Below, in pieces: positions 9,601 through 62,189 of a stretch of 64,000 nt of DNA. Each line of letters opens with the position of its first letter. Within the stretch, counting starts at the first letter, position 1. Source of the DNA: Lewinellaceae bacterium. GTDB lineage: Bacteria; Bacteroidota; Bacteroidia; Chitinophagales; Saprospiraceae. The notes under the pieces are model-generated. The model made no database searches. It saw only the letters and a program-made list of their open reading frames with translations, and was not told where the DNA came from. The stretch is from the NCBI GenBank assembly GCA_947476195.1, contig CANJPT010000003.1:1-64000 (forward strand), given 5' to 3'. A program made the translations under genes and the position numbers.

Positions 9601-12600
9601 GGCCAATGCTGGCAGCATCAAGCAGGGACAAGGAAAAAACAATATCGAAATATTCTGGCAAACGCCTGGAGTGTATCAGTTGAAAGTAACAATTTGTGGC
9701 CTGAGCACCAGTTTCAATGTCTCGGTCTGGGCCAATCCAAAGCCTATGCCCAATCACCCGGATGGGCTTTGCCAAGGGACTTTTGGCGTGGCAAGCGTGG
9801 CAGGTTCTTATGGTTCTTATACCTGGGAAGAAGCCAGCGGAACACCCTTAGGAAACAACCCTAACGTCAATATCCCAGCTGGTGCTTATACCATCGCGGT
9901 CACCGATATACACGGCTGCCGTGGCACGAGCGAGTTCTCGATTGACCCATTGCCCGCGCCCAATGTCACGGCCACTACTTCTGACCCTACCGGTTTTTGC
10001 AACAACTCCCGATTCGTCTCTATCACCGCCCTGGTGCCGGATGATGGCGTTTTCGACTACGAATGGTATCAGGATGGGGTGCCGCTCAATGCGAATGTGC
10101 CGGTGTACAGCACCAACCAATACGGCGACTATTCCGTGGTGGTCACCAACGCGTATGGCTGCACGGCCGACGACGGAATTGTCCGGGTATTCGAATACTG
10201 CGGTGGCGTTTGCCATAACCCCAATCACGGCCCAAAGTGTCAGCCTGGAGATGTCAAATTCAGTTATGACCTTACGCCACGCTGCGATTCTTTTCAATTT
10301 CAGCTCACAACGGCAGGTTTATATCAGGCTGGTTCGGCGGTGTGGCATTTTGGCGAGTCGGGCAGCGACTACCTTGGCAATGCTACCGGAGACACCCCCG
10401 GTTTTGTATTCCCCAATGCCGGAAAATATATCATTGTCCTGTATGCAGATCTGACCAACGGCGCGCATTGTGTCCTGCTTGATTCGGTAGACGTGGAGGC
10501 CTCAGCGCAATTTTCTCAAAAACTGGCCTGTCCGGGCGACTCCACTTTGTTCAGTGATGAAAGTACCCGTCTGCCCAATATGACCATTAGCAACTGGGAC
10601 TGGGATTTTGGCAGCGCCGGAAATGCGGATACGAGCCGTCTGGCCTCTCCGGGCTATCCTTATGCCAGTTCGGGGAACTACACAGCCACACTCACGATCA
10701 CCACCGCCACGGGCTGCACCTCTTCCTACTCAGAAAATGTGTTGGTACCCAATGTACCCTCCCCGGCCTTCGCGCCACCGCTCGCCAATTGTGCGGGCAA
10801 TGCCACGGCCTTTGTACTGGCCAGCAATGCAGGGCTCATCGGATCAGCCTGGAATTTTGGAGATCCGGTTTCCGGTGCTTTGAACCAAAGCAGCGCCAAT
10901 CCGGCCTACCACAATTATTCCCCGGCCGGGAATTATCCTGTCACCGTGACCGCTACCAATGGCTATGGTTGCACTGCATCGGTCACCCAGCCAGTGAACA
11001 TCACAGCAAACCCATTTTCAGGGAATATATTCCCGCCCACCTCCACCATTTGTCAGGGCAGCAGTCTGACCCTGAGCGCGCCTTTGGGACCGGGTGCAAT
11101 GTACGTCTGGAACGACGGAACCAATCAGCCGACACTCCTGGTCAATGCCGAAGGGATATACGACGTGACCCTGACCAACGGCAATGGCTGTTCGTATTCG
11201 CCCCCAGCCAAAACGGTGGATGTGAACCCGGCCCCCATCGGAACGATCAAGTTTTTGGAAGTCAATGATTTAGGACAGGTTGTAGGCGTCCAATACCCGG
11301 AAGCAAGCGTTTGTGCGGGTGATGATGTGACCCTTCAGATCCAGGACAACGGCAATTACACGTTCTCCTGGAGCGGCGGCAATGGGAGTGACGGCGTGCT
11401 GGTTTTTTCGGAAGACCGGAATAATCTGCTGAGTGTTGGAACACATACGTTTACTGTGACGGTAACGAATCCGTCCACTGGTTGTACGACGGTACTCACG
11501 CCTTTTACCGTGACCGTAAATCCGGTTCCGAACAATTTTAGCCTGTCTACCAACAACATTTGCGCCGGAACGCCTTCCACGATCACCTACACCGGCCCGA
11601 AACCGCCCGGATGGCAAATTTTCTGGAACACCGGCGATGCCGGTCCGAGCCTCCAAACCGATGAATCCGGGTTATATTTCGTGCGGGTGGTGAATGAATT
11701 TGGCTGCTCGGCACAAAGCAATACCGTCGTGATCTTCCCCGGCCCGAACATTTCGGCTTTGCCTTCCGGCTGTCATGAACGTTGCAACCCCGATACACTT
11801 TGCCTGCCCCCTTTGCCCGAAATCGTAAGCTGGCAATGGTTCTTTGAAGGTTCGGCCATTCCCGGTGCCACAAGTCATCAATTTGCCGCGACGCAAAGTG
11901 GTACTTATTGGGCAGAATTAATGGATATAAACGGCTGTGAGGCCAGCAGTGCACCACTCACGGTTGAACTTTATAATGGATTTGGCAACATCCTCGGCCA
12001 GGTCTGGTCGGACGTGAACGACAACGGGATCATTGATGCAGCCGATACCCTCGTATCCGGGATCCCGGTGCAATTGCTTCAAAATGGCACATTCATCGCT
12101 CCGGGCCAATCTGGAGCCAACGGCAGTTTTGACTGGCTGAGTGTGCCTTCGACGGACTATACCGTGCAGATCGATACTCAGTTACTCAGTCCGCTTTGGG
12201 AAATTGTCCTCTTTTCTGATTCAGTGGGGCTAAAGGGTTGTGGTGGAAAAGTCTTCGCCAGTTTGTTGGTGGATGCGTACACCTGTCCGCCCATTACTGC
12301 TACAGTCTCTTTGATGGCTTGCGCTGGTCAATCTGCGTTGTTCAACGGCACGGCCGTTCCTACCGGTCAATCGCAGAATTTTACATTCAAGAATTTCCTG
12401 GGCTGCGATTCTATTGTTACGGTCACCGTTTCTGCATTTCCGGCTTCCAGTTCCACCTTAAATGCCAAGGCTTGTCCGGGAAGTTTTTACACCTATAATG
12501 GCGTGGATCTGGCCGTCGGGCAATCGCAGAATTTCACCCTGAGCAATTGGCTGAGCTGCGATTCCATTGTTTCGGTCAACATTTCTGCATTCCCAACTTC

Positions 12601-14275
12601 CAGTTCCACCTTAAATGCCAAAGCTTGCCCGGGTAGTTTTTACACCTACAACGGTGTGGATCTGGCCGTCGGGCAATCGCAGAATTTCACCCTGAGCAAT
12701 TGGCTGGGCTGCGATTCTATTGTTACGGTCAGCGTTTCTGCATTCCCGGCTTCCAGTTCCACCTTAAATGCCAAGGCTTGTCCGGGAAGTTTTTACACCT
12801 ATAATGGCGTGGATCTGGCCGTCGGGCAATCGCAGAATTTCACCCTGAGCAATTGGCTGGGCTGCGATTCTATTGTCACCGTCACGGTTTCTGCATTCCA
12901 GACGTCCAGTTCCACCCTGAATGCCAAAGCTTGTCCGGGTAGTTTTTACACTTACAATGGCGTGGATCTAGCCGTCGGGCAATCGCAAGATTTCACCTTG
13001 AGCAATTTCCTGGGATGTGATTCTATTGTTACTGTCACGGTTTCTGCATTCCCGACTTCCAGTTCCACCTTGAATGCCAAAGCTTGTCCGGGAAGTTTTT
13101 ACACCTACAATGGCGTGGATCTGGCTCCCGGACAAATACAAAATTTCACCCTGACGAATTCGGCAGGCTGTGATTCTGTCGTGACCGTTACGGTTTCGGT
13201 TTTACCTACTTCCAGTTCGGCCATTTCCGTGGGGGTATGTGCCCATGAAACCTATACCTACGCTGGGGTGGTACTTACGGAGAATACAACACAGGATTTC
13301 GTACTCACCAATTCGGCAGGTTGCGATTCTGTAGTGACCGTCACCGTGTTTGGAAAGCCAAGTTCTTTGGAATTTCGAACAGAAAATGTTTGCCCAGGCG
13401 AAGTGTATATTTTTGAAAATCAAGCAATTGCAATCGGAGAAACCAGGACTTTCCAATTGATAAATTCGGAAGGCTGCGACAGCACCATCACGATTTTTGT
13501 AACGTCCTGGCCTGCTCCGAATGTCGAGTTAGAGACCGAAATATCCTGTCCCAACACGCCAACAGGAAGTCTGTCTGTTTCCGTATTGCCCGGTGGAAGT
13601 TTGCCTGACGCTTATTCCCTGGACAATATTACTTTCCAAAATTCACCCGTGTTTGAATCCCTCGGAGCAGGCAGTCAAACGGTATTTGTGCGCGATGAAA
13701 AAGGCTGTGTATTTGAAAAAACGGCTGTCATACCAGCTTCTCCGGGTTTAGCACTTGAGCTGCCCAATGCCTTTGTCATCCCATGTGACAGCGCGCAGAT
13801 CACCATTGTGCCTACGATTGGTGGCGATACCACAGGACTACAATTGCTTTGGTGGAATGGCGCAAAAACACCCTCGGTAACCGTTGGCGAACCCCGGGCC
13901 ATTTGGCTGGAGGCCTCCAACCATTGCGAGACCCTTCGAAGTGAAGGAGAAGTGTCCTGGGCTGATTCTGAAGGCGACACCGTTTTGATCTTCCTTCCCA
14001 ATGTTTTTGCACCGGAATCCAAATTGACCGAAAACGCCCTGTTCAGACCCTTCTTCGGCAAAAATCTGAATTTGCTCAGTTACCGCCTGGAAGTGTATGA
14101 CCGCTGGGGAAATTTTGTATTCGAAAGTGAAACCCCTGAAAATGGCTGGCCGGGAAACTTTAACCAGGCCTCTGTGGGCACGCAGGTTTTTGTATGGCAG
14201 ATGTGGGTACGGGTGGCTTTTTGCGGGCGCGAGCTCGAAATTTACAAAAAAGGAGATGTTACTGTAGTTCGGTAA
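6635..14275 (+). CDS. Giant T9SS-exported surface protein (SprB-like and PKD-like repeats, type B sorting domain)
   Basis: The product is 2,546 residues with a signal peptide (MKNNYTRLLASTVLTLFF, cleavage near AAQP). The N-terminal 280 residues hold at least three SprB-type repeats (patterns GGTPPYNYNW, TYTWSNGATT, AGTYTVTVTDA). Many Ig/PKD-like units follow, for example ending FTPGDFKVTLIARS and YASSGNYTATLTITTATG. Around residue 1780 comes an SdrD-like segment (GQVWSDVNDNGIIDAADT). Then come cysteine-paired 51-residue repeats (see 12443-13207). The last 60 residues (YDRWGNFVFES, GW.GNF, KGDVTVVR) match the T9SS type B sorting domain (CHU_C family). It is probably a cell-surface adhesin or gliding-related protein. 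The frame is open to 6572, but the ATG at 6635 directly precedes the signal peptide. Confidence 0.9.
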   Translation: MKNNYTRLLASTVLTLFFSLKIAAQPIVINSQVASATCNACNGSIDLTVTGGTPPYNYNWLSIPGTNDPADLTNLCGSTYIVTVTDAVGITKSATISVNQATQILPAYSWLDVACFGGNTGLINAVPNGGMPPLTYTWSNGATTNSINNLVAGTYCLTVVDANGCSMTDCRTITEPPALNPTLCVTNVKCFGGCTGGMIDLSVTGGSPGYTYTWGNGATTQDLSNICAGTYTVTVTDAKACTKTASATVGQPAAIVINSSIVNASNGINNGAIDITVIGGTPPYTPAWGSQNGPLFSTAFDITNLSAGSYCITVTDALGCTRTSCYTIQNNGGGNNSILLSGQVTNGGCGMNCDGSIEITINNGFVPYYYTLASAISNISGSSDQASFVLPSLCPGAYQIQINDGAGQLAFEDFFVGQNQSQTLPIQSSNSAFCNFDPGGNSPTCEMVCPKTTVTYFVDPPVICFLPVFFSGATWIVSGAESYSVNGNEVVVNWGEAGPGLVEFSGSGQGTCYQGQHCVTVLEEPVAKFSTDPPAMPNAVMQLCKGQTLAFKNESLNAELFEWQFSDDLSILSTENPKHTFFTPGDFKVTLIARSNCLCADTSILLIQVLDTEPPLLDCVGSVCPGETVTYSTSGSCSAYTWQVSPNGSILQGGQSGDNTITIQWADGPTGSISLSASGCAGAACPQASVFNISIISDNVEIRGNEFVCPNSEEAYSIDLFNGTEYTWTLPTGGNILRGQGTNKVAVAWNAQLTSATHWLIVDYYNCYLGCGGTDSIPVKILSPFFIDGPVEMCEHSTKNYHSKTSTNLDVNCNWSVYGPNGALVSSLTGAFFNFTPAAGPGNYRLFAVPTSPNQSCSQNAELKVSVAEQPSKPVAISGPKLVCPGTPLQYEVPGNPPYEIEWKTGNGTPALQTGNPVNINWNTNPTHWISAAQISLDGLGCKSDTTRLNIQNATAISISGPPNTCEGGVAFYQADFYQGFDYQWELIPANAGSIKQGQGKNNIEIFWQTPGVYQLKVTICGLSTSFNVSVWANPKPMPNHPDGLCQGTFGVASVAGSYGSYTWEEASGTPLGNNPNVNIPAGAYTIAVTDIHGCRGTSEFSIDPLPAPNVTATTSDPTGFCNNSRFVSITALVPDDGVFDYEWYQDGVPLNANVPVYSTNQYGDYSVVVTNAYGCTADDGIVRVFEYCGGVCHNPNHGPKCQPGDVKFSYDLTPRCDSFQFQLTTAGLYQAGSAVWHFGESGSDYLGNATGDTPGFVFPNAGKYIIVLYADLTNGAHCVLLDSVDVEASAQFSQKLACPGDSTLFSDESTRLPNMTISNWDWDFGSAGNADTSRLASPGYPYASSGNYTATLTITTATGCTSSYSENVLVPNVPSPAFAPPLANCAGNATAFVLASNAGLIGSAWNFGDPVSGALNQSSANPAYHNYSPAGNYPVTVTATNGYGCTASVTQPVNITANPFSGNIFPPTSTICQGSSLTLSAPLGPGAMYVWNDGTNQPTLLVNAEGIYDVTLTNGNGCSYSPPAKTVDVNPAPIGTIKFLEVNDLGQVVGVQYPEASVCAGDDVTLQIQDNGNYTFSWSGGNGSDGVLVFSEDRNNLLSVGTHTFTVTVTNPSTGCTTVLTPFTVTVNPVPNNFSLSTNNICAGTPSTITYTGPKPPGWQIFWNTGDAGPSLQTDESGLYFVRVVNEFGCSAQSNTVVIFPGPNISALPSGCHERCNPDTLCLPPLPEIVSWQWFFEGSAIPGATSHQFAATQSGTYWAELMDINGCEASSAPLTVELYNGFGNILGQVWSDVNDNGIIDAADTLVSGIPVQLLQNGTFIAPGQSGANGSFDWLSVPSTDYTVQIDTQLLSPLWEIVLFSDSVGLKGCGGKVFASLLVDAYTCPPITATVSLMACAGQSALFNGTAVPTGQSQNFTFKNFLGCDSIVTVTVSAFPASSSTLNAKACPGSFYTYNGVDLAVGQSQNFTLSNWLSCDSIVSVNISAFPTSSSTLNAKACPGSFYTYNGVDLAVGQSQNFTLSNWLGCDSIVTVSVSAFPASSSTLNAKACPGSFYTYNGVDLAVGQSQNFTLSNWLGCDSIVTVTVSAFQTSSSTLNAKACPGSFYTYNGVDLAVGQSQDFTLSNFLGCDSIVTVTVSAFPTSSSTLNAKACPGSFYTYNGVDLAPGQIQNFTLTNSAGCDSVVTVTVSVLPTSSSAISVGVCAHETYTYAGVVLTENTTQDFVLTNSAGCDSVVTVTVFGKPSSLEFRTENVCPGEVYIFENQAIAIGETRTFQLINSEGCDSTITIFVTSWPAPNVELETEISCPNTPTGSLSVSVLPGGSLPDAYSLDNITFQNSPVFESLGAGSQTVFVRDEKGCVFEKTAVIPASPGLALELPNAFVIPCDSAQITIVPTIGGDTTGLQLLWWNGAKTPSVTVGEPRAIWLEASNHCETLRSEGEVSWADSEGDTVLIFLPNVFAPESKLTENALFRPFFGKNLNLLSYRLEVYDRWGNFVFESETPENGWPGNFNQASVGTQVFVWQMWVRVAFCGRELEIYKKGDVTVVR
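12443..13207 (+). repeat. Five tandem 153-bp repeats inside the giant surface gene
   Basis: Units begin at 12443, 12596, 12749, 12902 and 13055, each exactly 153 bp (51 codons) and near-identical in DNA. Each encodes SSSTLNAKACPGSFYTYNG, then VDLAVGQSQNFTLSN, then a segment ending LGCDSIVTVTVSAFP, with two conserved Cys per unit. Degenerate units flank the array on both sides (about 12290-12442 and 13208 to about 13510), so the near-identity of the central five suggests recent duplication or gene conversion. Confidence 0.95.
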
Positions 14276-25167: not shown

Positions 25168-25190
25168 AGTTTTAGTGTCTTTAGATTATT

Positions 25191-25513
25191 AGGTCATTGG
25201 TCATTGTGGTCATTAAGTCATTAGTCATTAGGGTCATTAGGGTCATTAAGTCATTAGGGTCATTAAGTCATTAGGGTCATTAAGTCATTAGGGTCATTAG
25301 GGTCATTAGGGTCATTAAGTCATTAGGGTCATTAAGTCATTAGGGTCATTAGGGTCATTAGGGTCATTAAGTCATTAGGGTCATTAAGTCATTAGGGTCA
25401 TTAGGGTCATTGGTCATTGCTCAAATGGCCCCAATGACTATAATGACCAATGACTTAATGACCCTAATGACCAATGACTTAATGACTATAATGACCAATG
25501 AACACAATGACTT
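25191..25513. repeat. Array 1 of GTCATT words, mirrored, filling a gap between minus-strand genes
   Basis: By eye, about 27 copies of GTCATT with 1-4 nt spacers (mostly AGG or AA) run from 25191 to about 25418. A turn containing GCTCAAATGGCCCC follows, then about 9 copies of the reverse complement AATGAC run to 25513, two bases before the stop codon of the next gene. Part of the left half shows a second-order period of about 52 nt (spacer pattern AGG, AGG, AGG, AA, AGG, AA). The array can fold back on itself over its shorter half. Confidence 0.95.
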
Positions 25514-25515
25514 AC

Positions 25516-27725: not shown

Positions 27726-27857
27726 GGGGTTATTGGGGTCATTATAGTCATTATAGTCATTGGGGTCATTAGGGCAATGACCCCAATGACTATAATGACT
27801 ATAATGACCCCAATGACTATAATGACTATAATGACCTTAATGTCCTTAATGTCCAAT
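27726..27857. repeat. Array 2 of GTCATT words, mirrored
   Basis: About five GTCATT-type copies (27726-27770) are followed by the turn GGGC at 27771-27774 and about eight AATGAC copies running to 27857, where the last degenerate units (AATGTCC) abut the stop codon of the minus-strand gene at 27858. The other end lies about 24 nt from the start codon of the hydrolase pseudogene. Spacers here are mostly ATA and GGG. Confidence 0.93.
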
Positions 27858-30173: not shown

Positions 30174-30430
30174 CTGCTTACAAATTTGAGAAGGTTCATG
30201 GAGGAAGGGATCATATTCACCCATTCTTAAGACGGATTATTCTGAATTCAAGTTGGGGCAATTTCTCCGGGCAGAATTTTACTTTACAAAGGTGGGTCTT
30301 TTTTTATGAAAAAATAAAGACAATTTTCGGAACTTGCCGGAGGTTTAAAAAAAAAATAACTAGGCTATAAAATTGATTTTCAAAAGATTAAGTATCCTTT
30401 TGGCAGTCTAGAACATTGCCATTGACTAAA

Positions 30431-30622
30431 CACATCTATCATCTTGAAACCGCTCGTTTCAACGAGCGGCAAGAAATGACCACTCATCACATCTATCTTC
30501 TTTGCAAAACATCAACATTTATAGCGTACTGAAAATGTGATGTTTTGCAAAGAAGGTAGATGTAACCTGTTGAGGTTATGGCCCCCCGACTGAAGTTTGG
30601 GGGTTACAAGATGATAGATGTG
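30431..30622. repeat. Nested palindrome island with additional stems
   Basis: The outer arms CACATCTATCATCTTG (30431-30446) and 30607-30622 are perfect 16-bp reverse complements. The inner arms 30489-30520 and 30532-30563 are about 32-nt reverse complements with one mismatch and one bulge. Between the layers sit separate stems: CCGCTCG/CGAGCGG (30450-30469), AACCT/AGGTT (30564-30577) and CCCCC/GGGGG (about 30583-30603). It lies in the 587-nt gap between divergent genes (30174-30760). The remainder of that gap has no gene that I can support. Confidence 0.85.
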
Positions 30623-30760
30623 GTTCTGAATTTTCCGAAAGGCTATTTTGTCACTTTAGCCGACTAAGCTTCTTCCAACATCCATCCAAAAAACGTGTTC
30701 CATTTTTCTTAAATCAACAGGGTGCAGCCACATTAAACCCATTGACCACATTTTACAAAA

Positions 30761-32188
30761 TTGTTTAGCGAAAAACTCCTTTCCGTTCTCCAGACCCTCT
30801 CCAAAGTCGAGCGCAATCGATTTCGGAAATACCTGCTTTCGCCCTATCTCAATGACCAAGCGGACCTGACATTGCTTTTTGATATTTTTGATAAAGCGCT
30901 CCGGGAGGATACATTTACGCAACTTGAACGCCAGCAAGTCTGGCAAAAATTATACCCGAAAAAGCCTTACAAAGATGCGCAACTGCGCCGGCTTACTTCT
31001 GACCTGAATCAATTGGGCCTCCGTTTTTTATCCGCTGAAGCTCGCAGCCAAAACCCACTTGCTGAAGCACTGGACTTGCAACGGCTGCTCGAAAAGCCGG
31101 AGTTCAAAAAACACCTGGCTGGCGTAGAACGGAACATCACCCGCTTGCTTGATGAGGTGTCCGGGCAATCCACGGAGTATTACCTGGCACAATTCAACCT
31201 GCACAACAACATCGTAAATAAGACCTCCAAACACCTTTCTGTCTCAGGATACGCGGACAAACTTTCCTCCGCAGATTTTTATCTGGAATGCTTTTACCTG
31301 ACACAAAAATTAGAACTATACATCGGATGGCTGCTCTATCAGGGATCAAGGGTCTCTGAAAAGAGCCTGGATCTGCCCTTTGGTTTTTGGGAACATCTTG
31401 AAAACGAACGATTTAACAATATCCCGCTCCTTATAGTTTACCGTCTGGTAGTCAGTTGTCTGGATAAACCAGAGGAGGAATTTCACTTCAAAAACCTACT
31501 CGAAAGCCTGGAATCTCATTCAGAAGATCTTACCAAAACAGATCTTCGCAAATGCTATTTCATTGCCCAAAACTATTGTGCCCTGAAAATCAATCAGGGA
31601 AAACGGGAGTATTACCGGGAAATGTTTGAGACTTTTAAAAAGATCATTCAAAAAGGACTTTTATTGGAGGAGGGCAACCTTTCTGAGGGTATTTTCAAAA
31701 ACATCGTTACCGTTGGGCTAGGGGTAGGCGAGTTTGAATGGATCGAGCATTTTATTGAAGAATATGCAGCTCATCTTCCAACAAGTACCCGAGAGAATGC
31801 ACGTACTTTTAATCTTGCATATTTGTTCTTTTACCAAAAAAGATATTCAGAGGTAATTGGATTGCTCCAAAATGTGGAATATAATGACGTTGTTTATGCG
31901 CTTGGATCAAAAATTATTATGATCCAAACATATTATGAACTTGATGAGATCCTACCGATGGAGTCACTTATTGACAGCTTTCGTATTTATATTCGACGCA
32001 ATAAAGTGATGTCAAAAAACTTAAAACGGGAGTACATCAACTATCTTGGTTTTGTAAAAAAACTGCCCACTATTTATAGCCTGGATAGAAAAACAATTGC
32101 GAAATTTCGGGAAAAGGTAGCTTCCTCCACCGCTCCTACTTACAAAAAATGGCTCCTCGAAAAAATTGATGAACTTCAAAAAAAATAG
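30761..32188 (+). CDS. Conserved Bacteroidota helical protein of unknown function
   Basis: The product is 475 residues, all-helical in appearance, with no signal peptide or membrane segment. It begins FSEKLLSVLQTLSKVERNRF, then RKYLLSPYLNDQADLTLLFD, a start typical of a family found widely in Saprospiria whose role is unknown. The repeating helix pairs later on (e.g. LAYLFFYQKRYSEVIGLLQN) look TPR-like. The start codon is TTG at 30761; no ATG lies upstream in frame or nearby downstream before the conserved region, so the non-ATG start is forced. Its 3' end overlaps the next gene by 20 nt, so the two are probably translated together. Confidence 0.75.
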   Translation: MFSEKLLSVLQTLSKVERNRFRKYLLSPYLNDQADLTLLFDIFDKALREDTFTQLERQQVWQKLYPKKPYKDAQLRRLTSDLNQLGLRFLSAEARSQNPLAEALDLQRLLEKPEFKKHLAGVERNITRLLDEVSGQSTEYYLAQFNLHNNIVNKTSKHLSVSGYADKLSSADFYLECFYLTQKLELYIGWLLYQGSRVSEKSLDLPFGFWEHLENERFNNIPLLIVYRLVVSCLDKPEEEFHFKNLLESLESHSEDLTKTDLRKCYFIAQNYCALKINQGKREYYREMFETFKKIIQKGLLLEEGNLSEGIFKNIVTVGLGVGEFEWIEHFIEEYAAHLPTSTRENARTFNLAYLFFYQKRYSEVIGLLQNVEYNDVVYALGSKIIMIQTYYELDEILPMESLIDSFRIYIRRNKVMSKNLKREYINYLGFVKKLPTIYSLDRKTIAKFREKVASSTAPTYKKWLLEKIDELQKK

Positions 32189-33287
32189 CCTGCTCGTATA
32201 CTTTGCCTGCTGGGCCTCCATACTCGCTGCGCAAAAAGTATCCTTCGATGCTACCCTATATCGGGGCTCTGTATGGCGTCACACACCTAAACTGACCACG
32301 CAAACAGGCGAGCACATCGGCGGACAAGAACTTGGCTTTCGTATCCATACCACCGGGCGGAAAGACTGGCAGGCCTGGCAAAAATATCCTGCATTGGGCA
32401 TTTCTTTGGCCCATTTTACCCTGGGAGACGGTTCGCATGGAAATGCTTTTACGGTGCTGCCGCATCTGAGTATTCCCTTGCTTCGGGCAGGGCGTTGGAC
32501 CGCAAATTTTCGAGTGGGTACAGGTCTGGCTTGGGTAACAAGACCGTATGACTGGTTCAAAAATCCCAATCAGAATGCAATTGGCACGCACTGGAACGCC
32601 ATCACCCAATTCCGATTCGGTGCCGAATTTCGCGCTGCCCAACACCTGCGCTTTAGCGCAGGCGGCAGCATGACCCATATTTCCAATGGCGGCACATCAT
32701 TGCCCAATTATGGCATCAATATTTTTTCAGGATGGGCCGGTGCAGCCTGGTTCTTAAAACCTGTAAAAAAAGAAGATCTGAGACCTGCTAATAATAGCAA
32801 ACACCTATTGAACAGGCGGTTTGGCGGACAAGTACAGGGTGGACTCGCCTTGCTGGAGATTGCCTCTTTGGATGGCCCTAAACATGCGGTCTGGTGCGGC
32901 TCGACAGCTGGATATTATCAGATCAGCCGCATTAACCGGGTACTTTTAGGAATGGATTATGAATTAAATAAGGCTATTTATTCGTGGGGCCTGCATTCAG
33001 CGCGATTTGGTGATGAACTTGCCGCACGACAAGGATCCACACGTCTGGCTATTTTTGCTGCAGAGGAATTTTTGTTTGGCGACCTCAGTATTGTACTACA
33101 AACAGGAAAATATATAGGCAAAAACATCAATCAATACGTCCCAAATGAAAACTACGCCAAACTTTCTGTGCGGTACTATTTCCCAGCGTTTTGGGGCAAG
33201 GACTTAAAAGCCTATGCGGGCATTTCCATTAAAGCACACAAGTTTACGGCGGAGTATATTTCGGGAAATGTGGGAATATCGTTTTGA
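32169..33287 (+). CDS. Acyloxyacyl hydrolase / PagL-like outer-membrane lipid A deacylase
   Basis: The product is 372 residues with a signal peptide (SLLVYFACWASILAAQ). It is a beta-barrel-like sequence with the PagL/PF09411 features: the conserved His-Ser-Asn stretch THISNGGTSLPNYGIN (about 175-190), preceded by FRFGAEFRAAQHLRFSAGG, and terminal strands ending GNVGISF with a C-terminal Phe. PagL enzymes remove an acyl chain from lipid A in the outer membrane. The length is about twice classic PagL, as is usual for the Bacteroidota members, so the substrate is uncertain. The ATG at 32169 lies inside the 3' end of the preceding gene (20-nt overlap). Confidence 0.75.
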   Translation: MNFKKNSLLVYFACWASILAAQKVSFDATLYRGSVWRHTPKLTTQTGEHIGGQELGFRIHTTGRKDWQAWQKYPALGISLAHFTLGDGSHGNAFTVLPHLSIPLLRAGRWTANFRVGTGLAWVTRPYDWFKNPNQNAIGTHWNAITQFRFGAEFRAAQHLRFSAGGSMTHISNGGTSLPNYGINIFSGWAGAAWFLKPVKKEDLRPANNSKHLLNRRFGGQVQGGLALLEIASLDGPKHAVWCGSTAGYYQISRINRVLLGMDYELNKAIYSWGLHSARFGDELAARQGSTRLAIFAAEEFLFGDLSIVLQTGKYIGKNINQYVPNENYAKLSVRYYFPAFWGKDLKAYAGISIKAHKFTAEYISGNVGISF

Positions 33288-34519: not shown

Positions 34520-34777
34520 TCAATTGTAAACATCCTTTCGATGGCCAACTGCAATAATATCAACCACCAGAATCTCCTCTAAAATATCGTAAATGATCCG
34601 GTAGTTGCCTTGCCTGATACGCCAACCATCGCGCCCCTTCAATTTTTTACAGCCAATTGGACGAGGGTCATCAACGAGGGAGAGGATGACTACAGACAAG
34701 ATTTCCACCACAGAATCCGGAAGTTTGTCCAATTGCTTTTGGGCTGTTTTGGTGAGGACTATTTTATATTCAGGCAT
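34520..34777 (-). CDS. RelE/ParE-family toxin
   Basis: The product is 85 residues: MPEYKIVLTKTAQKQLDKLP, then the family pattern LKGRDGWRIRQGNYRIIYDI and a C-terminal VVDIIAVGHRKDVY. The Arg pair around the WRIR.GNYR motif and the final H.KDVY are typical of RelE/ParE-like toxins, which are mRNA interferases or gyrase inhibitors; sequence does not tell which. It follows its antitoxin gene with an 8-nt overlap, as expected for a toxin-antitoxin operon. Confidence 0.88.
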   Translation of the reverse strand: MPEYKIVLTKTAQKQLDKLPDSVVEILSVVILSLVDDPRPIGCKKLKGRDGWRIRQGNYRIIYDILEEILVVDIIAVGHRKDVYN

Positions 34778-34973
34778 GACTTTGCGCTGAGCGCTGACGG
34801 AGGTATTCTTTAAAGTCCATACGCTCTTCCTGACGATTTTTCACTTCGTCATAGCTCCGTATATCCTCTAATTCTTCCAGCTCCTCAAGCAGGAACTCAA
34901 ATTCGTCTATCGTGAGCACGACCGAAATTTTTTGGCCTAGTTCGTCGGTGATATAGTGAGGAGTAAGCGTCAT
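34770..34973 (-). CDS. Antitoxin partner of the RelE/ParE-family toxin
   Basis: The product is 67 residues starting MTLTPHYITDELGQKISVVL. The acidic C-terminal helix region (FEFLLEELEELEDIRSYDEV, then KNRQEERMDFKEYL) fits the toxin-binding end of a Phd/RelB-like antitoxin, and the N-terminal beta strands fit a DNA-binding half. It precedes and overlaps the toxin gene, the standard order. The open frame starts upstream at 35015, but that would run into the VWA-like gene at 35002; the ATG at 34973 is preferred. The operon is probably autoregulated; I see no clear operator. Confidence 0.8.
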   Translation of the reverse strand: MTLTPHYITDELGQKISVVLTIDEFEFLLEELEELEDIRSYDEVKNRQEERMDFKEYLRQRSAQSHA

Positions 34974-35001
34974 GTTGTGAAATTTAGTCCAACAAAGGTA
35001 C

Positions 35002-37101
35002 TCAATAAGCCCCAAAATACCGCCTCAAAAACCACTCGCCCGCCAACAGCAAAGCCAGCAATGCAAAGATCCATTTAAGGTTGATGAGCGGGTTGGTCTG
35101 GGTCGTTTGGTATATAACGGGCTTCACGGTTTCATTCGCCTTTATCTTTTCAGCAATGCTGGCGAGTTGGGTGGGGAACACCGTTTCGCCGCCAAATTTT
35201 GCACTCAGCTGACGTAACACGGCATGGTTGGCAGTTGTTTCAAACAATTCCAATTCAATGGGTTGGACACTGAAACGCCCTTCATATACCAGGCCTTGCC
35301 CGTTAAAATTAACCATGGCTTTATAGGCATAAGGCCCAACCGGAAGAATGCCGGCGTTGAGCGTGTACGCTTTGCCGAGTTTATTAAACGTGTAGGTAAA
35401 TTCTTTCCCGTCGCGGTTGCGAATGCTCATGGCTACGTCGGGGTCATTGGTCAATTCGTAATTGTCATTGTAGAGTTCTCCTCCAAAGGTCACAGCCTCA
35501 TTTTCGTTGAAAATATTTTTATCCAGGGTAACCCGGAATTTGCGTTTATCTTCTTTGAGGGAGAGATACTGCACCGTTTTGCCGATCAATTCATCAAAAA
35601 TTTCATGATTTTGATGCTGCAGGTAATCAAATAAATGCCAGCGCCACAATCCTTCTCCGAGCAATATTCCCGTTTTAATACCATTGGTTTCGCCTACCGC
35701 CAAAAGCGGCTGATCGGTATCCACTTTGCCAATTCGTTTGCGGAGTAGCACCTGGGCCTGCTGTGTAGCAGCAAAATTGCCAAAAGCCGAGGTCATCGGG
35801 TTGAACTTTGGAAGCTCCTCCATGACCCTCGGACTAAGTGAAAAAGCCGCAAATTGAGGCGATACCCGACCTTGTACTTCGTCACTCTGCGTGCCATCAC
35901 TCTGTAGGCTTACCAGTGCCTGTGCTTTTGCCAGCGCGGCGTATCCGGTCTGCATCCCTGCAATGAAAAGCCGGGGTATCCGCTTGGCATTCATGGTATT
36001 GAGCAAGCCGGAAAGATCATTGGTCGTGGAAGGCAGGTTGTGCAATATTACAAAGTCGTATTTGCCTATATCCAGGCCGGGGTCGTTGATATAAGCGGTG
36101 CTGACCTGGTAATTCTTGTTGCCTTCTAGGGTCGTTTTTAGTGCACTAAGGTCGGGGTGCGGGCTATTTGCCAAGAGCAGGATCTTCTGTCGGGCATCCA
36201 GCACATCTATAAAAATTTCACGGCGATTGTTGCTTGTACTTGCTTCGCCAGGCAACACAGCCGCGCTGATGATGTACGAGACTACACCTGCCTGATCGGC
36301 ATCGAGTTGTACCTCTTTGGTAATGAAAAAATCATTCCCGGAAATCACCACGGGGATGCTCTGCAGCGCTTTAACCCCAGAATCACTTGATTTTGAAACC
36401 GTGACCACCGTTTGTTTGCCAGCCATATTGGTCGCCGCAAGATCAATTTGCAGGATAAACTTGTCGCCGAGGTACGCAATCTTATTGTGGAAAACCCGCT
36501 TAACGATCAGGTCTTTTTTCGGCGTAGTATCGCCCAATGCGACCGTGTATACGGGTGCCGACAGCGGCGCATCTGAATATGCCGGATTGCTGCCTTCGTT
36601 GTAGATACCGTCCGAAGCGAGTACTACGGCGCCCAGGTTTTGGCCTCCGTACAGGTCGTATACGCCACGAAGCAGTTCTGAATAGTTAGAGACTTTGTCG
36701 GTAAAGTTAAAATCCACCCCTTCGCGCACCTGATCGCCAAAAGCGAGTTCATGTACCTCGTAATTTTCAGCAAGGGAATTCTTCAGTGCAGACCAATCCT
36801 GCTTATAATGCTCCAAAGCCTCCCCTTGCAGGTCGGTGGCCACACTTTCAGACTGGTCTTGTGCCAGTACCACGATAGGCTTTTTGGTTTCGGTGAAAAA
36901 ACTCTTGAGCAGTGGCGACAACAACAATGCGCTTAGCAAAGTAACGGTAATCCAACGCATCAGCCCAAGCCAGCGATTAAGGTTTGGAGCTTGATCACGA
37001 AAGGTATTATCGCGATAATAAAGCAGCAGTGCATAGCCAAGTCCCAGCAGCACACAAAAGATCAGAAACCAGGCGGGGTATTGAAAAGAAAGGTCGAGCA
37101 T
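35002..37101 (-). CDS. VWA-like membrane protein
   Basis: The product is 699 residues. Two N-terminal membrane segments (WFLIFCVLLGLGYALLLYY; WITVTLLSALLLSPLL) and one near the C-terminus (LKWIFALLALLLAGEWFL) frame a large extracytoplasmic domain. That domain begins with a VWA/Rossmann-like strand and acidic motif (IVVLAQDQSESVATDL) and later VVLASDGIYNEGSNPAYSD, which recalls a degenerate metal-site DxSxS. A BatA/BatB-like aerotolerance or secretion-related role is possible, but this long Bacteroidota form is functionally unassigned. Its start codon is 6 nt from the edge of array 3. The toxin-antitoxin pair follows on the same strand. Confidence 0.75.
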   Translation of the reverse strand: MLDLSFQYPAWFLIFCVLLGLGYALLLYYRDNTFRDQAPNLNRWLGLMRWITVTLLSALLLSPLLKSFFTETKKPIVVLAQDQSESVATDLQGEALEHYKQDWSALKNSLAENYEVHELAFGDQVREGVDFNFTDKVSNYSELLRGVYDLYGGQNLGAVVLASDGIYNEGSNPAYSDAPLSAPVYTVALGDTTPKKDLIVKRVFHNKIAYLGDKFILQIDLAATNMAGKQTVVTVSKSSDSGVKALQSIPVVISGNDFFITKEVQLDADQAGVVSYIISAAVLPGEASTSNNRREIFIDVLDARQKILLLANSPHPDLSALKTTLEGNKNYQVSTAYINDPGLDIGKYDFVILHNLPSTTNDLSGLLNTMNAKRIPRLFIAGMQTGYAALAKAQALVSLQSDGTQSDEVQGRVSPQFAAFSLSPRVMEELPKFNPMTSAFGNFAATQQAQVLLRKRIGKVDTDQPLLAVGETNGIKTGILLGEGLWRWHLFDYLQHQNHEIFDELIGKTVQYLSLKEDKRKFRVTLDKNIFNENEAVTFGGELYNDNYELTNDPDVAMSIRNRDGKEFTYTFNKLGKAYTLNAGILPVGPYAYKAMVNFNGQGLVYEGRFSVQPIELELFETTANHAVLRQLSAKFGGETVFPTQLASIAEKIKANETVKPVIYQTTQTNPLINLKWIFALLALLLAGEWFLRRYFGAY

Positions 37102-37107
37102 TTAAAT

Positions 37108-37206
37108 CGTCATTGTAGTCATTAGGTCATTGAGTCATTAGGTCATTGAGTCATTAGGCCAATGACCTAATGACTCAATGACGATGAATGACCCAATGAC
37201 GAATCA
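37108..37206. repeat. Array 3 of GTCATT words, mirrored
   Basis: About six GTCATT copies (37108-37156) precede the turn GGCC (37157-37160). About five AATGAC copies follow, to about 37206. It fills the space between the start codon at 37101 (6 nt away) and the hairpin at 37208-37235. It has the same build as arrays 1, 2 and 4, with spacers AG and GAG. Confidence 0.93.
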
Positions 37207-61162: not shown

Positions 61163-61415
61163 TGTCATTAGTCATTAGAGTCATTGGGGTCATTGCTCTA
61201 ATGACCCCAATGACTCTAATGACCTAAATGACCAATGACTCTATTGACCTAAATGACTAATGACCTAAATGACTCTAATGACCTAAATGACTCTATTGAC
61301 CCCAATGACTCTAATGACCTAAATGACCAATGACTCTAATGACCTAAATGACCAATGACTCTAATGACCTAAATGACTCTATTGACCCCAATGACTCTAT
61401 TGACCTAAATGACCA
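61163..61415. repeat. Array 4 of GTCATT/AATGAC words, mirrored
   Basis: About four GTCATT copies (61163-61193) precede the turn GCTCT (about 61194-61198). About 28 AATGAC or ATTGAC copies follow, with TCT, CTA, CC and CA spacers, running to 61415. The array starts 1-2 nt after the kinase stop codon and its last unit runs into the ATG of the esterase gene at 61416. Long and short halves are reversed relative to array 1 on the plus strand, but both keep the order GTCATT, turn, AATGAC. Confidence 0.95.
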
Positions 61416-62189
61416 ATGCCAAACCCTCCACAACTCTTCTCCCGAACCTTCGGCGCCGGTTCGCCGGTGCTCATTCTGCACGGCCTTTTTGGTTTTTCAG
61501 ACAACTGGCAAACCATTGCCAAAGGCCTGGCTGAAACGCATCTGGTAGTCACGCCTGACCTCCGCAACCATGGTCGGTCGCCACACCTACCCACGCATAC
61601 TTACCCCGAAATGGCGGAAGATCTGCGCGTTTTCATGGAAGAAAAATGGATGTTTCAGGCAGCAGTGATCGGCCATAGCATGGGTGGCAAAGTAGCCATG
61701 CAACTTGCGCTGACTTACACGGATATGGTGGAAAAACTGGTGGTCGTAGACATGGAGCCCGGCCAGGCCGACGACAATCATTCCGGCATTATTCGGGCAC
61801 TATTGGGCTTAGATCTGTCAAAAATGACCGCGCGAAGTGAGGCCGAAGCCTATCTGGCCGATCGGATCCCGGACTTTGGAACCAGACAGTTTTTACTAAA
61901 AAATATCACCCGGGAAGACGATGGAAGCTTCAGCTGGAAAATGAACCTGCCGGTGCTTTGGGAACATTTCAACGATATCCTGGCACCCGTGACAGGAGAG
62001 CCTTTTGAAAAACCCACGCTTTTTGTGCGCGGCAGCCGCTCGGATTATGTGAAAGACAGCGAGTGGGAAAAGACAAAAATGTTATTTCCGAATGCTGAAC
62101 TGGTCACCATTGAAGGCGCCGGGCATTGGGTGCATGCGGATAAGCCTAAGGAGCTTTTGGAGGTGTTGAGGGGATTTTTGAAAGATTAG
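61416..62189 (+). CDS. Alpha/beta hydrolase, YbfF-like esterase
   Basis: The product is 257 residues. The oxyanion region (ILHGLFGFSDNWQ), the nucleophile elbow (VIGHSMGGKVAMQLAL), the acid (LFVRGSRSDYVKD) and the His (EGAGHWVHADKP) form a complete catalytic triad. The pattern is that of small esterases such as YbfF. The start ATG follows directly on the last AATGAC repeat. The end is convergent with a secreted protein gene. Confidence 0.88.
   Translation: MPNPPQLFSRTFGAGSPVLILHGLFGFSDNWQTIAKGLAETHLVVTPDLRNHGRSPHLPTHTYPEMAEDLRVFMEEKWMFQAAVIGHSMGGKVAMQLALTYTDMVEKLVVVDMEPGQADDNHSGIIRALLGLDLSKMTARSEAEAYLADRIPDFGTRQFLLKNITREDDGSFSWKMNLPVLWEHFNDILAPVTGEPFEKPTLFVRGSRSDYVKDSEWEKTKMLFPNAELVTIEGAGHWVHADKPKELLEVLRGFLKD

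Follow-up and report, generated by a model that had tools for sequence, protein, structure and literature searches.

Nested palindromes in a Saprospiraceae genome, probably a copy of a miniature mobile DNA element

In a 64,000-nucleotide stretch of a Lewinellaceae genome (the window), an island of nested palindromes lies between two divergent genes, one encoding a PKD/T9SS-sorting-domain protein and the other a 475-aa protein without a Pfam family. Is such an island a structured RNA, a site used by the host, or a piece of mobile DNA? The evidence favours a small mobile DNA element, present across a Saprospiraceae genus and represented here by a single copy, over an RNA gene.

The outer arms (30431-30446, CACATCTATCATCTTG; 30607-30622, CAAGATGATAGATGTG) are 16-bp complements with no mismatch, exactly the perfect outer repeat claimed by the first-pass annotation, and the pairing extends to 24 nt at 92% (30428-30451/30602-30625). 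The inner inverted repeat (30489-30514/30538-30563), given there as 32 nt, is present but measures 26 nt at 96%, coming near 32 only once the fold lengthens the stem towards the loop. Three side stems, described as independent, all exist (30450-30470, 30563-30578 and 30582-30603); the middle one is private to the window copy, while the other two, like the outer and inner stems, are family-wide among 57 aligned copies. The word ACATCTATC(A/T)TCTT occurs twice directly and twice inverted, the latter with one or two changes, which bears out the proposal that the island was built by repeating and inverting a single word. No ORF of at least 80 aa crosses the core, in agreement with the claimed lack of coding potential, and the nested stems were rightly credited with the capacity to form a cruciform. 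As RNA, the island folds at -104.3 kcal/mol; 200 dinucleotide shuffles average -44.9 (sd 4.4), which places it at z -13.7, and the opposite strand reaches z -12.4 against dinucleotide shuffles. An Rfam scan of the whole window returned no family at gathering score.

Table 1. Parts of the island and of the insertion that carries it, in window coordinates
Feature	Coordinates	Strand	Basis and remarks
Left outer arm ACATCTATCATCTTGAAACC	30432..30451	+	Repeat search; ends just 5' of the hairpin with GAAA, a candidate guide tetranucleotide
Side hairpin A, CCGCTCGTT-TC-AACGAGCGG	30450..30470	+	Two-sided changes family-wide in 6/6 scored inner pairs
Inner stem, 5' arm, with the second copy of the ACATCTATCWTCTT word	30488..30514	+	Repeat search and covariation
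Central loop region	30515..30537	.	Same place occupied by the transposase gene in Y1-bearing relatives
Inner stem, 3' arm	30538..30563	-	Repeat search and covariation
Small stem TAACC-TGTTGA-GGTTA	30563..30578	.	Fold; only in the window copy among 57 aligned (by eye)
Side hairpin B, CCCCCCGACTGAAGTTTGGGGG	30582..30603	+	Two-sided changes family-wide in 4/5 scored pairs
Right outer arm GGTTACAAGATGATAGATGT	30602..30621	-	Repeat search
Lineage-specific insertion (approximate): core and decayed outer flanks	30392..30727	.	Right border uncertain by tens of bases

Other repeats and gene groups are found elsewhere in the window. Intergenic tandem arrays at 25188-25514, 27776-27855, 37109-37158 and 61198-61418 consist of variants of one word, ATTAGGGTC / AATGACC, with periods of 8-9 and multiples. 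The array at 12364-13347 (153-bp unit, 5.6 copies, 86% matches) has a 51-codon period and lies perhaps in a repetitive surface protein. An ORF at 32166-33287 carries a PagL-like lipid A deacylase domain (PF09411). At 34520-35015, a ParE-type toxin gene (PF05016, 48 bits) adjoins an RlmN-domain gene and overlaps a small upstream gene whose RelB-like match is sub-threshold (26.3 of 27 bits).

A search for further copies, as the first-pass annotation advised, finds them both in the same genome and in relatives. The window's genome holds five full-length copies (C3, which is the window's, C57, C122, C133 and C113), one shortened copy (C50), two single-hairpin copies (C73, C40) and two fragments (C121, C97), in both orientations. 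Matches occur in 18 of the 100 genomes searched, this one included, and are distributed as 17/42 in the genus, 1/19 elsewhere in the family and 0/39 elsewhere in the order; 25 of the 42 genus genomes have none. An arm-pattern scan of named genomes gave 39 stretches, almost all labelled Saprospiraceae or Bacteroidetes-type MAGs. One exact arm match (L095) is on a contig labelled uncultured Lachnospiraceae, for which chance, a binning error or transfer are all possible. Copies are mostly extragenic: among 25 with long flanks, three overlap a mechanical ORF of at least 120 aa by more than 60 nt, and the 23 that were classed by gene context comprise 13 tandem, 7 convergent and 3 divergent. A different arrangement is found in genome G024 (L068, 1502-2034), where units of arm and hairpin follow one another as direct repeats spaced 92 bp apart, with right arms lacking and variant units beside them.

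The stems of the family are conserved by compensatory change, the absence of which, together with that of a transcript, the first-pass annotation regarded as the mark of a chance or decaying element; the island thus passes the refutation test set there. Of 68 full copies, 57 entered the alignment; they come from 14 genomes, G021 contributing 18, and the 11 left out fell outside 179-202 bp. Stem cells are paired in 94.0% of cases across the 57 copies, and control structures slid along the alignment are paired in 34-49%. Two-sided changes affect 22 of 57 pairs (15.1 in shuffles) and 204 cells (78.0 in shuffles), neither value being reached in any of 500 shuffles; the stems counted were defined on the window copy and its neighbours, and the values carry the caution that the copies are related and the structure derives from the same copies that were scored. 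In hairpins A and B the letters have been almost wholly exchanged with pairing kept, and the arms hardly vary. At the 5' foot of the hairpins the four letters are GTAA in 53/57 copies on the left and 55/57 on the right, and GAAA in the remainder, the left foot of the window copy among them. As judged from this alignment, the element's stems are under constraint.

The divergent gene pair is kept, with the core missing, in four relatives (G041, G033, G021 and G038), so the window copy is probably a local insertion. In a fifth relative, G010, the contig begins beside the gene, and the comparison accordingly covers these four. The site is polymorphic between species, and the comparison indicates that the copy was probably inserted in the window's own lineage. 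Homology to the four relatives ends near 30391 and restarts near 30728-30742; the core does lie at 30431-30622, the extent first proposed, but the element reaches further. Between the gene pair of these relatives no arm or inner unit was found beyond one 4-change arm-like match in G041, which appeared chance-like on inspection. Unaligned bases at the site number about 35 in G033 and nearly 200 in G041, and local scores at the empty site stand at 0.05 and 0.06 of shuffles, respectively, in intergenic DNA that has diverged among the relatives; a decayed core remnant in G041 or G033 is formally possible. In inverted orientation the flanks of the window copy still resemble each other weakly (score 41, 0.004 of shuffles), and no target duplication was recognised at the core borders of this copy or of most others.

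Some relatives carry a transposase gene within the element itself. A search for PF01797 (Y1_Tnp) in 24 genomes, compared with an arm-pattern search of 18, revealed IS200-like Y1 genes of the HUH type between inverted arms of the element. In L155 the order is outer repeat-ARM-hpA-INNER-Y1 gene-INNER'-hpB-ARM'-outer repeat, and the gene has 145 codons from its first ATG. Nine such loci are known from eight genomes. Five of them (L155, L156, L185, L200 and L119) carry arms on both sides; at L207 inner units flank the gene on both sides and one side has an arm; degenerate units border L225 on both sides; and the units of L159 and L201 are one-sided. L185 and L207 appear to be broken or split between frames. 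In a tree of 45 Y1 proteins the nine group as a single clade (support 100/99, recovered in all 200 bootstrap trees); the rows of this tree came from searches begun with this clade and are not a neutral sample. The next relatives outside the clade, including the C92 gene of the window's own genome (54% identity), are without arms.

By profile, the clade protein belongs with IS200-type enzymes, scoring 91.5 bits against PF01797 and 73 bits against NF033573 (IS200/IS605; cut-off 55), and it matches ISHp608 TnpA at E 1e-8. The NCBIfam REP-associated model NF047646 gives 25 bits, below its cut-off of 80. The clade motifs are Y---Q--HH and DH[IV]H (EHVH in L119), with WA as the W motif. The clade is present in 6/15 element-bearing and 0/22 element-free genomes (Fisher p 0.002 for the 37 compared, with relatedness ignored). 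Among the miniature copies nearest to each Y1-bearing copy, those of its own genome come first in 2/5 cases and second in 3/5, within a close trio. Co-occurrence and mini-copy similarity support, but do not prove, that the clade protein serves the core, which it would presumably recognise and move. When 44 Y1 loci were scored for repeats common to both flanks (43 of them with Y---Q--HH, palindromes scoring in either orientation), 27 exceeded the 95% point of cross-locus pairs and 16 stood at 0.01 or less; L159 and L201 were not above the null. The long inverted flanks of three other Y1 loci (L143, L147 and L150) contain REP-like hairpins of an unrelated kind, for example GACCTCG..CGAGGTC followed by TTGGTAGC.

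No cognate member of the clade was found in the assembly of the window's genome. Its seven PF01797 matches were considered as partners and rejected, the best identity to the clade being 54%. The arm word, with up to four changes, is absent near the Y1 genes C92, C9, C90 and C200, and one weak 4-change match lies near C71; C14 and C5 were checked for arms by a separate scan only. Several other genomes also hold copies of the element with no clade member found, among them the well-assembled G007 (9 contigs) and G009 (7 contigs). Since the own assembly yielded no cognate gene, the window copy may now be immobile.

Beyond the arms, copies of one species have further inverted sequence in common, and these outer shells differ between species. 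Shells of the GGYTCTTCGTG type are flanked by a perfect 8-bp target duplication in 11 of 13 distinct cases. Nine of the 13 are those among the 68 full copies in which both shell ends are present, seven with the duplication and two (L077, L079) without, and four more come from G100. Control pairs across loci gave 0/72 perfect 8-bp matches and 7/72 at 7/8, in AT-rich sequence. Four G100 copies, at unrelated places, differ at 2-9 of 272 positions, and spread there has accordingly been recent. In the same genome the shell end recurs at 13 contig starts and the interior is common to the four stretches compared, which points to a longer repeated insertion sequence with the same end; such a sequence, its gene lying outside the assembled sequence, is likely in G100. 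The GGYTCTTCGTG ends may be ISL3-like. ISL3 as the shell enzyme was rejected, PF01610 (the ISL3 DDE domain) having 0 matches in 6 genomes.

A second type of shell, CACACTACTGGACATTTTGG, is found both empty and filled in G021, G038 and G017. Empty shells are palindromes of 71-80 bp (six read), and filled ones span 383-432 bp (eight read, another having unread bases). Several of the filled ones show 9-bp duplications by eye, and filled shells have a further repeat, often AGGTTTnnnnAAACCT, on both sides. The repeats of 15-16 bp around the G021-type shell include exact direct matches of at least 12 in 17/31 copies versus 86/930 cross pairs, and of at least 15 in 12/31 versus 64/930. At L163 the repeat flanking such a shell is exact and direct over 33 bp, double the usual length. 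In L245 and L262, the full core of GGTTCTTCGTG-type shells of less than 100 bp is replaced by a lone ACATCTnTCAT hairpin. The core occurs in shells with unrelated ends, and it also occurs without a recognised shell (L119 and the G012 copies). Target duplications are not expected from IS200-type enzymes; as the duplications are found at the shell and not at the core, recent spread may have been driven by a transposase other than Y1.

These shells raise the possibility of an ordinary palindromic MITE for whose movement DDE-type transposases, acting on the outer terminal repeats, would be solely responsible; the Y1 gene would then be a passenger that landed in some copies. Such an account would explain the duplications around the GGYTCTTCGTG shells and their absence from the cross-locus pairs, the second shell type of about 78-80 bp that is found empty and filled with 9-bp duplications by eye, and the copies in genomes without the Y1 clade. 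It fits poorly with the same core in shells of unrelated ends or in none that is recognised, with unit-flanked Y1 genes that form one clade, unlike a random passenger, and with the empty search for an ISL3 DDE enzyme, and is considered unlikely, if still a serious competitor. Use by the host as a cruciform or protein-binding island, for example a gyrase or nucleoid-protein site whose mobility is merely history, would account for stems kept even in a genome where no cognate Y1 gene was found, and REP/BIME elements elsewhere do bind host proteins. An island that is absent from 25 of the genus genomes and from the orthologous site of four relatives makes this use very improbable.

The multi-branched RNA suggested by the first-pass annotation, kept for its fold as an sRNA or an untranslated-region element, could draw on the very stable fold and the compensatory changes. 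Both strands fold about equally, however, Rfam has no match in the window, the orientation and gene context of copies are inconstant, and the orthologous site is empty in four relatives, so that an RNA function is given hardly any credence. Folding of both strands, copies in both orientations, transposase-bearing relatives, target duplications at shells and the empty site together argue for a mobile DNA element. Two further candidates were considered and set aside: an integron attC site, whose boxes the arm does not appear to fit, and targets of IS110 or group II introns. The favoured reading, with a probability of roughly 0.65, takes the island to be the core of a REPIN-like mobile DNA element that is non-autonomous and has a Y1 partner in relatives.

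Among known systems, the closest parallel is the REPIN or BIME with its RAYT (TnpA_REP) transposase. In REPINs, two inverted REP-like units with their own hairpins fold into a long hairpin or clover and show compensatory changes; a related Y1 transposase gene lies next to such units or is enclosed by them, and each hairpin has four characteristic letters at its 5' foot (PMC3116915). The element likewise has inverted hairpin units able to form one long hairpin, and its copies are dispersed and mostly extragenic, as those of REPINs are. Unlike REPINs, it is about 190 bp long with an extra inner palindrome, and its own genome contains five full copies rather than hundreds (PMC3116915). Its foot is GTAA, otherwise GAAA, in contrast to GTAG/GTGG; NCBIfam models class the relatives' transposase with IS200/IS605 rather than with the REP-associated enzymes; and the element is carried in outer shells with target duplications. 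Because neither a GTAG foot nor the REP-associated class was found, it is termed REPIN-like and not a REPIN.

Features of other families recur as well. With IS200/IS605 elements, it has in common a Y1/HUH TnpA with the Y---Q motif, in relatives and not in the window copy, but those elements have subterminal hairpins with neither terminal inverted repeats nor target duplications, whereas here the ends are inverted repeats and some shells have target duplications. Of the traits of DDE-type MITEs, terminal inverted repeats and duplications of fixed length occur at the relatives' shells; no duplication was recognised at the window copy. PATEs of Haloquadratum, archaeal palindrome-associated MITEs, are said to be miniature relatives of IS200/IS605-type elements and are likened here by description only. 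In TIRtrons (TIRYT), long inverted repeats, some of them with partial self-complementarity, flank Y1 genes, and copies of these repeats are dispersed (PMC3733652). Most TIRYTs are placed in subclass 2.1 by the classification of Y1 proteins (PMC6006769), unlike the 1.2-like proteins with Y---Q--HH and the specific nested core seen here. The same classification characterises TnpA_Y1 subclass 1.2 by DH[IV]H and Y---Q--HH, occurrence in Bacteroidetes and Cyanobacteria, a REP entry of 'no' and generally no IS200-type terminal structures (PMC6006769). The clade agrees in both motifs, in its length of about 145 aa, in its Bacteroidetes hosts and in low copy number, and differs in being flanked by a repeated palindromic element, in WA for WQ and in the EHVH of L119; by motif only, it fits subclass 1.2. 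No published account of this nested palindrome element was found in the literature searched, most subscription journals lying outside its scope.

The REPIN-like reading would imply the following working. The core consists of two inverted REP-like units, each ACATCTATCATCTTGTAACC with a GC hairpin and GTAA at its 5' foot, around the inner palindrome. A Y1/HUH single-strand transposase gene interrupts this palindrome in what would be the autonomous form, and miniature copies such as the window's keep a short loop only. Whenever the DNA is single-stranded, as on the lagging strand, folding of the units would follow, and a dimer of the Y1 transposase acting in trans would bind the feet of GTAA plus hairpin, with GTAA as a putative guide, and would cut and move the segment in excision and insertion. 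Selection for this step would maintain pairing in the stems. Several species also have the core enclosed by the outer terminal repeats of a different type of transposon, where it is carried passively, with target duplications of 8 bp (or 9 bp). A bolder and rather doubtful extension is an element with two engines, in which a multi-branched core served by Y1 inserts time and again into the tips of palindromic MITEs that belong to unrelated DDE transposons and spreads both by single-strand transfer and as double-strand cut-and-paste cargo, its shells changing over time.

The element offers a candidate DNA substrate for subclass 1.2-like Y1/HUH proteins, which one survey lists without REP partners (PMC6006769). 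The 57 aligned natural variants and the nine transposase loci are a source of proteins and substrates for studies of binding and cleavage. If the element does have two engines, nested palindromes would be what the Y1 proteins of subclass 1.2, for which no DNA partner is known yet, work on. One hairpin core in several unrelated shells, empty and filled in the same genomes, bears on the origin and spread of REPINs and palindromic MITEs. For the window itself, a possible RNA gene is replaced by a mobile insertion.
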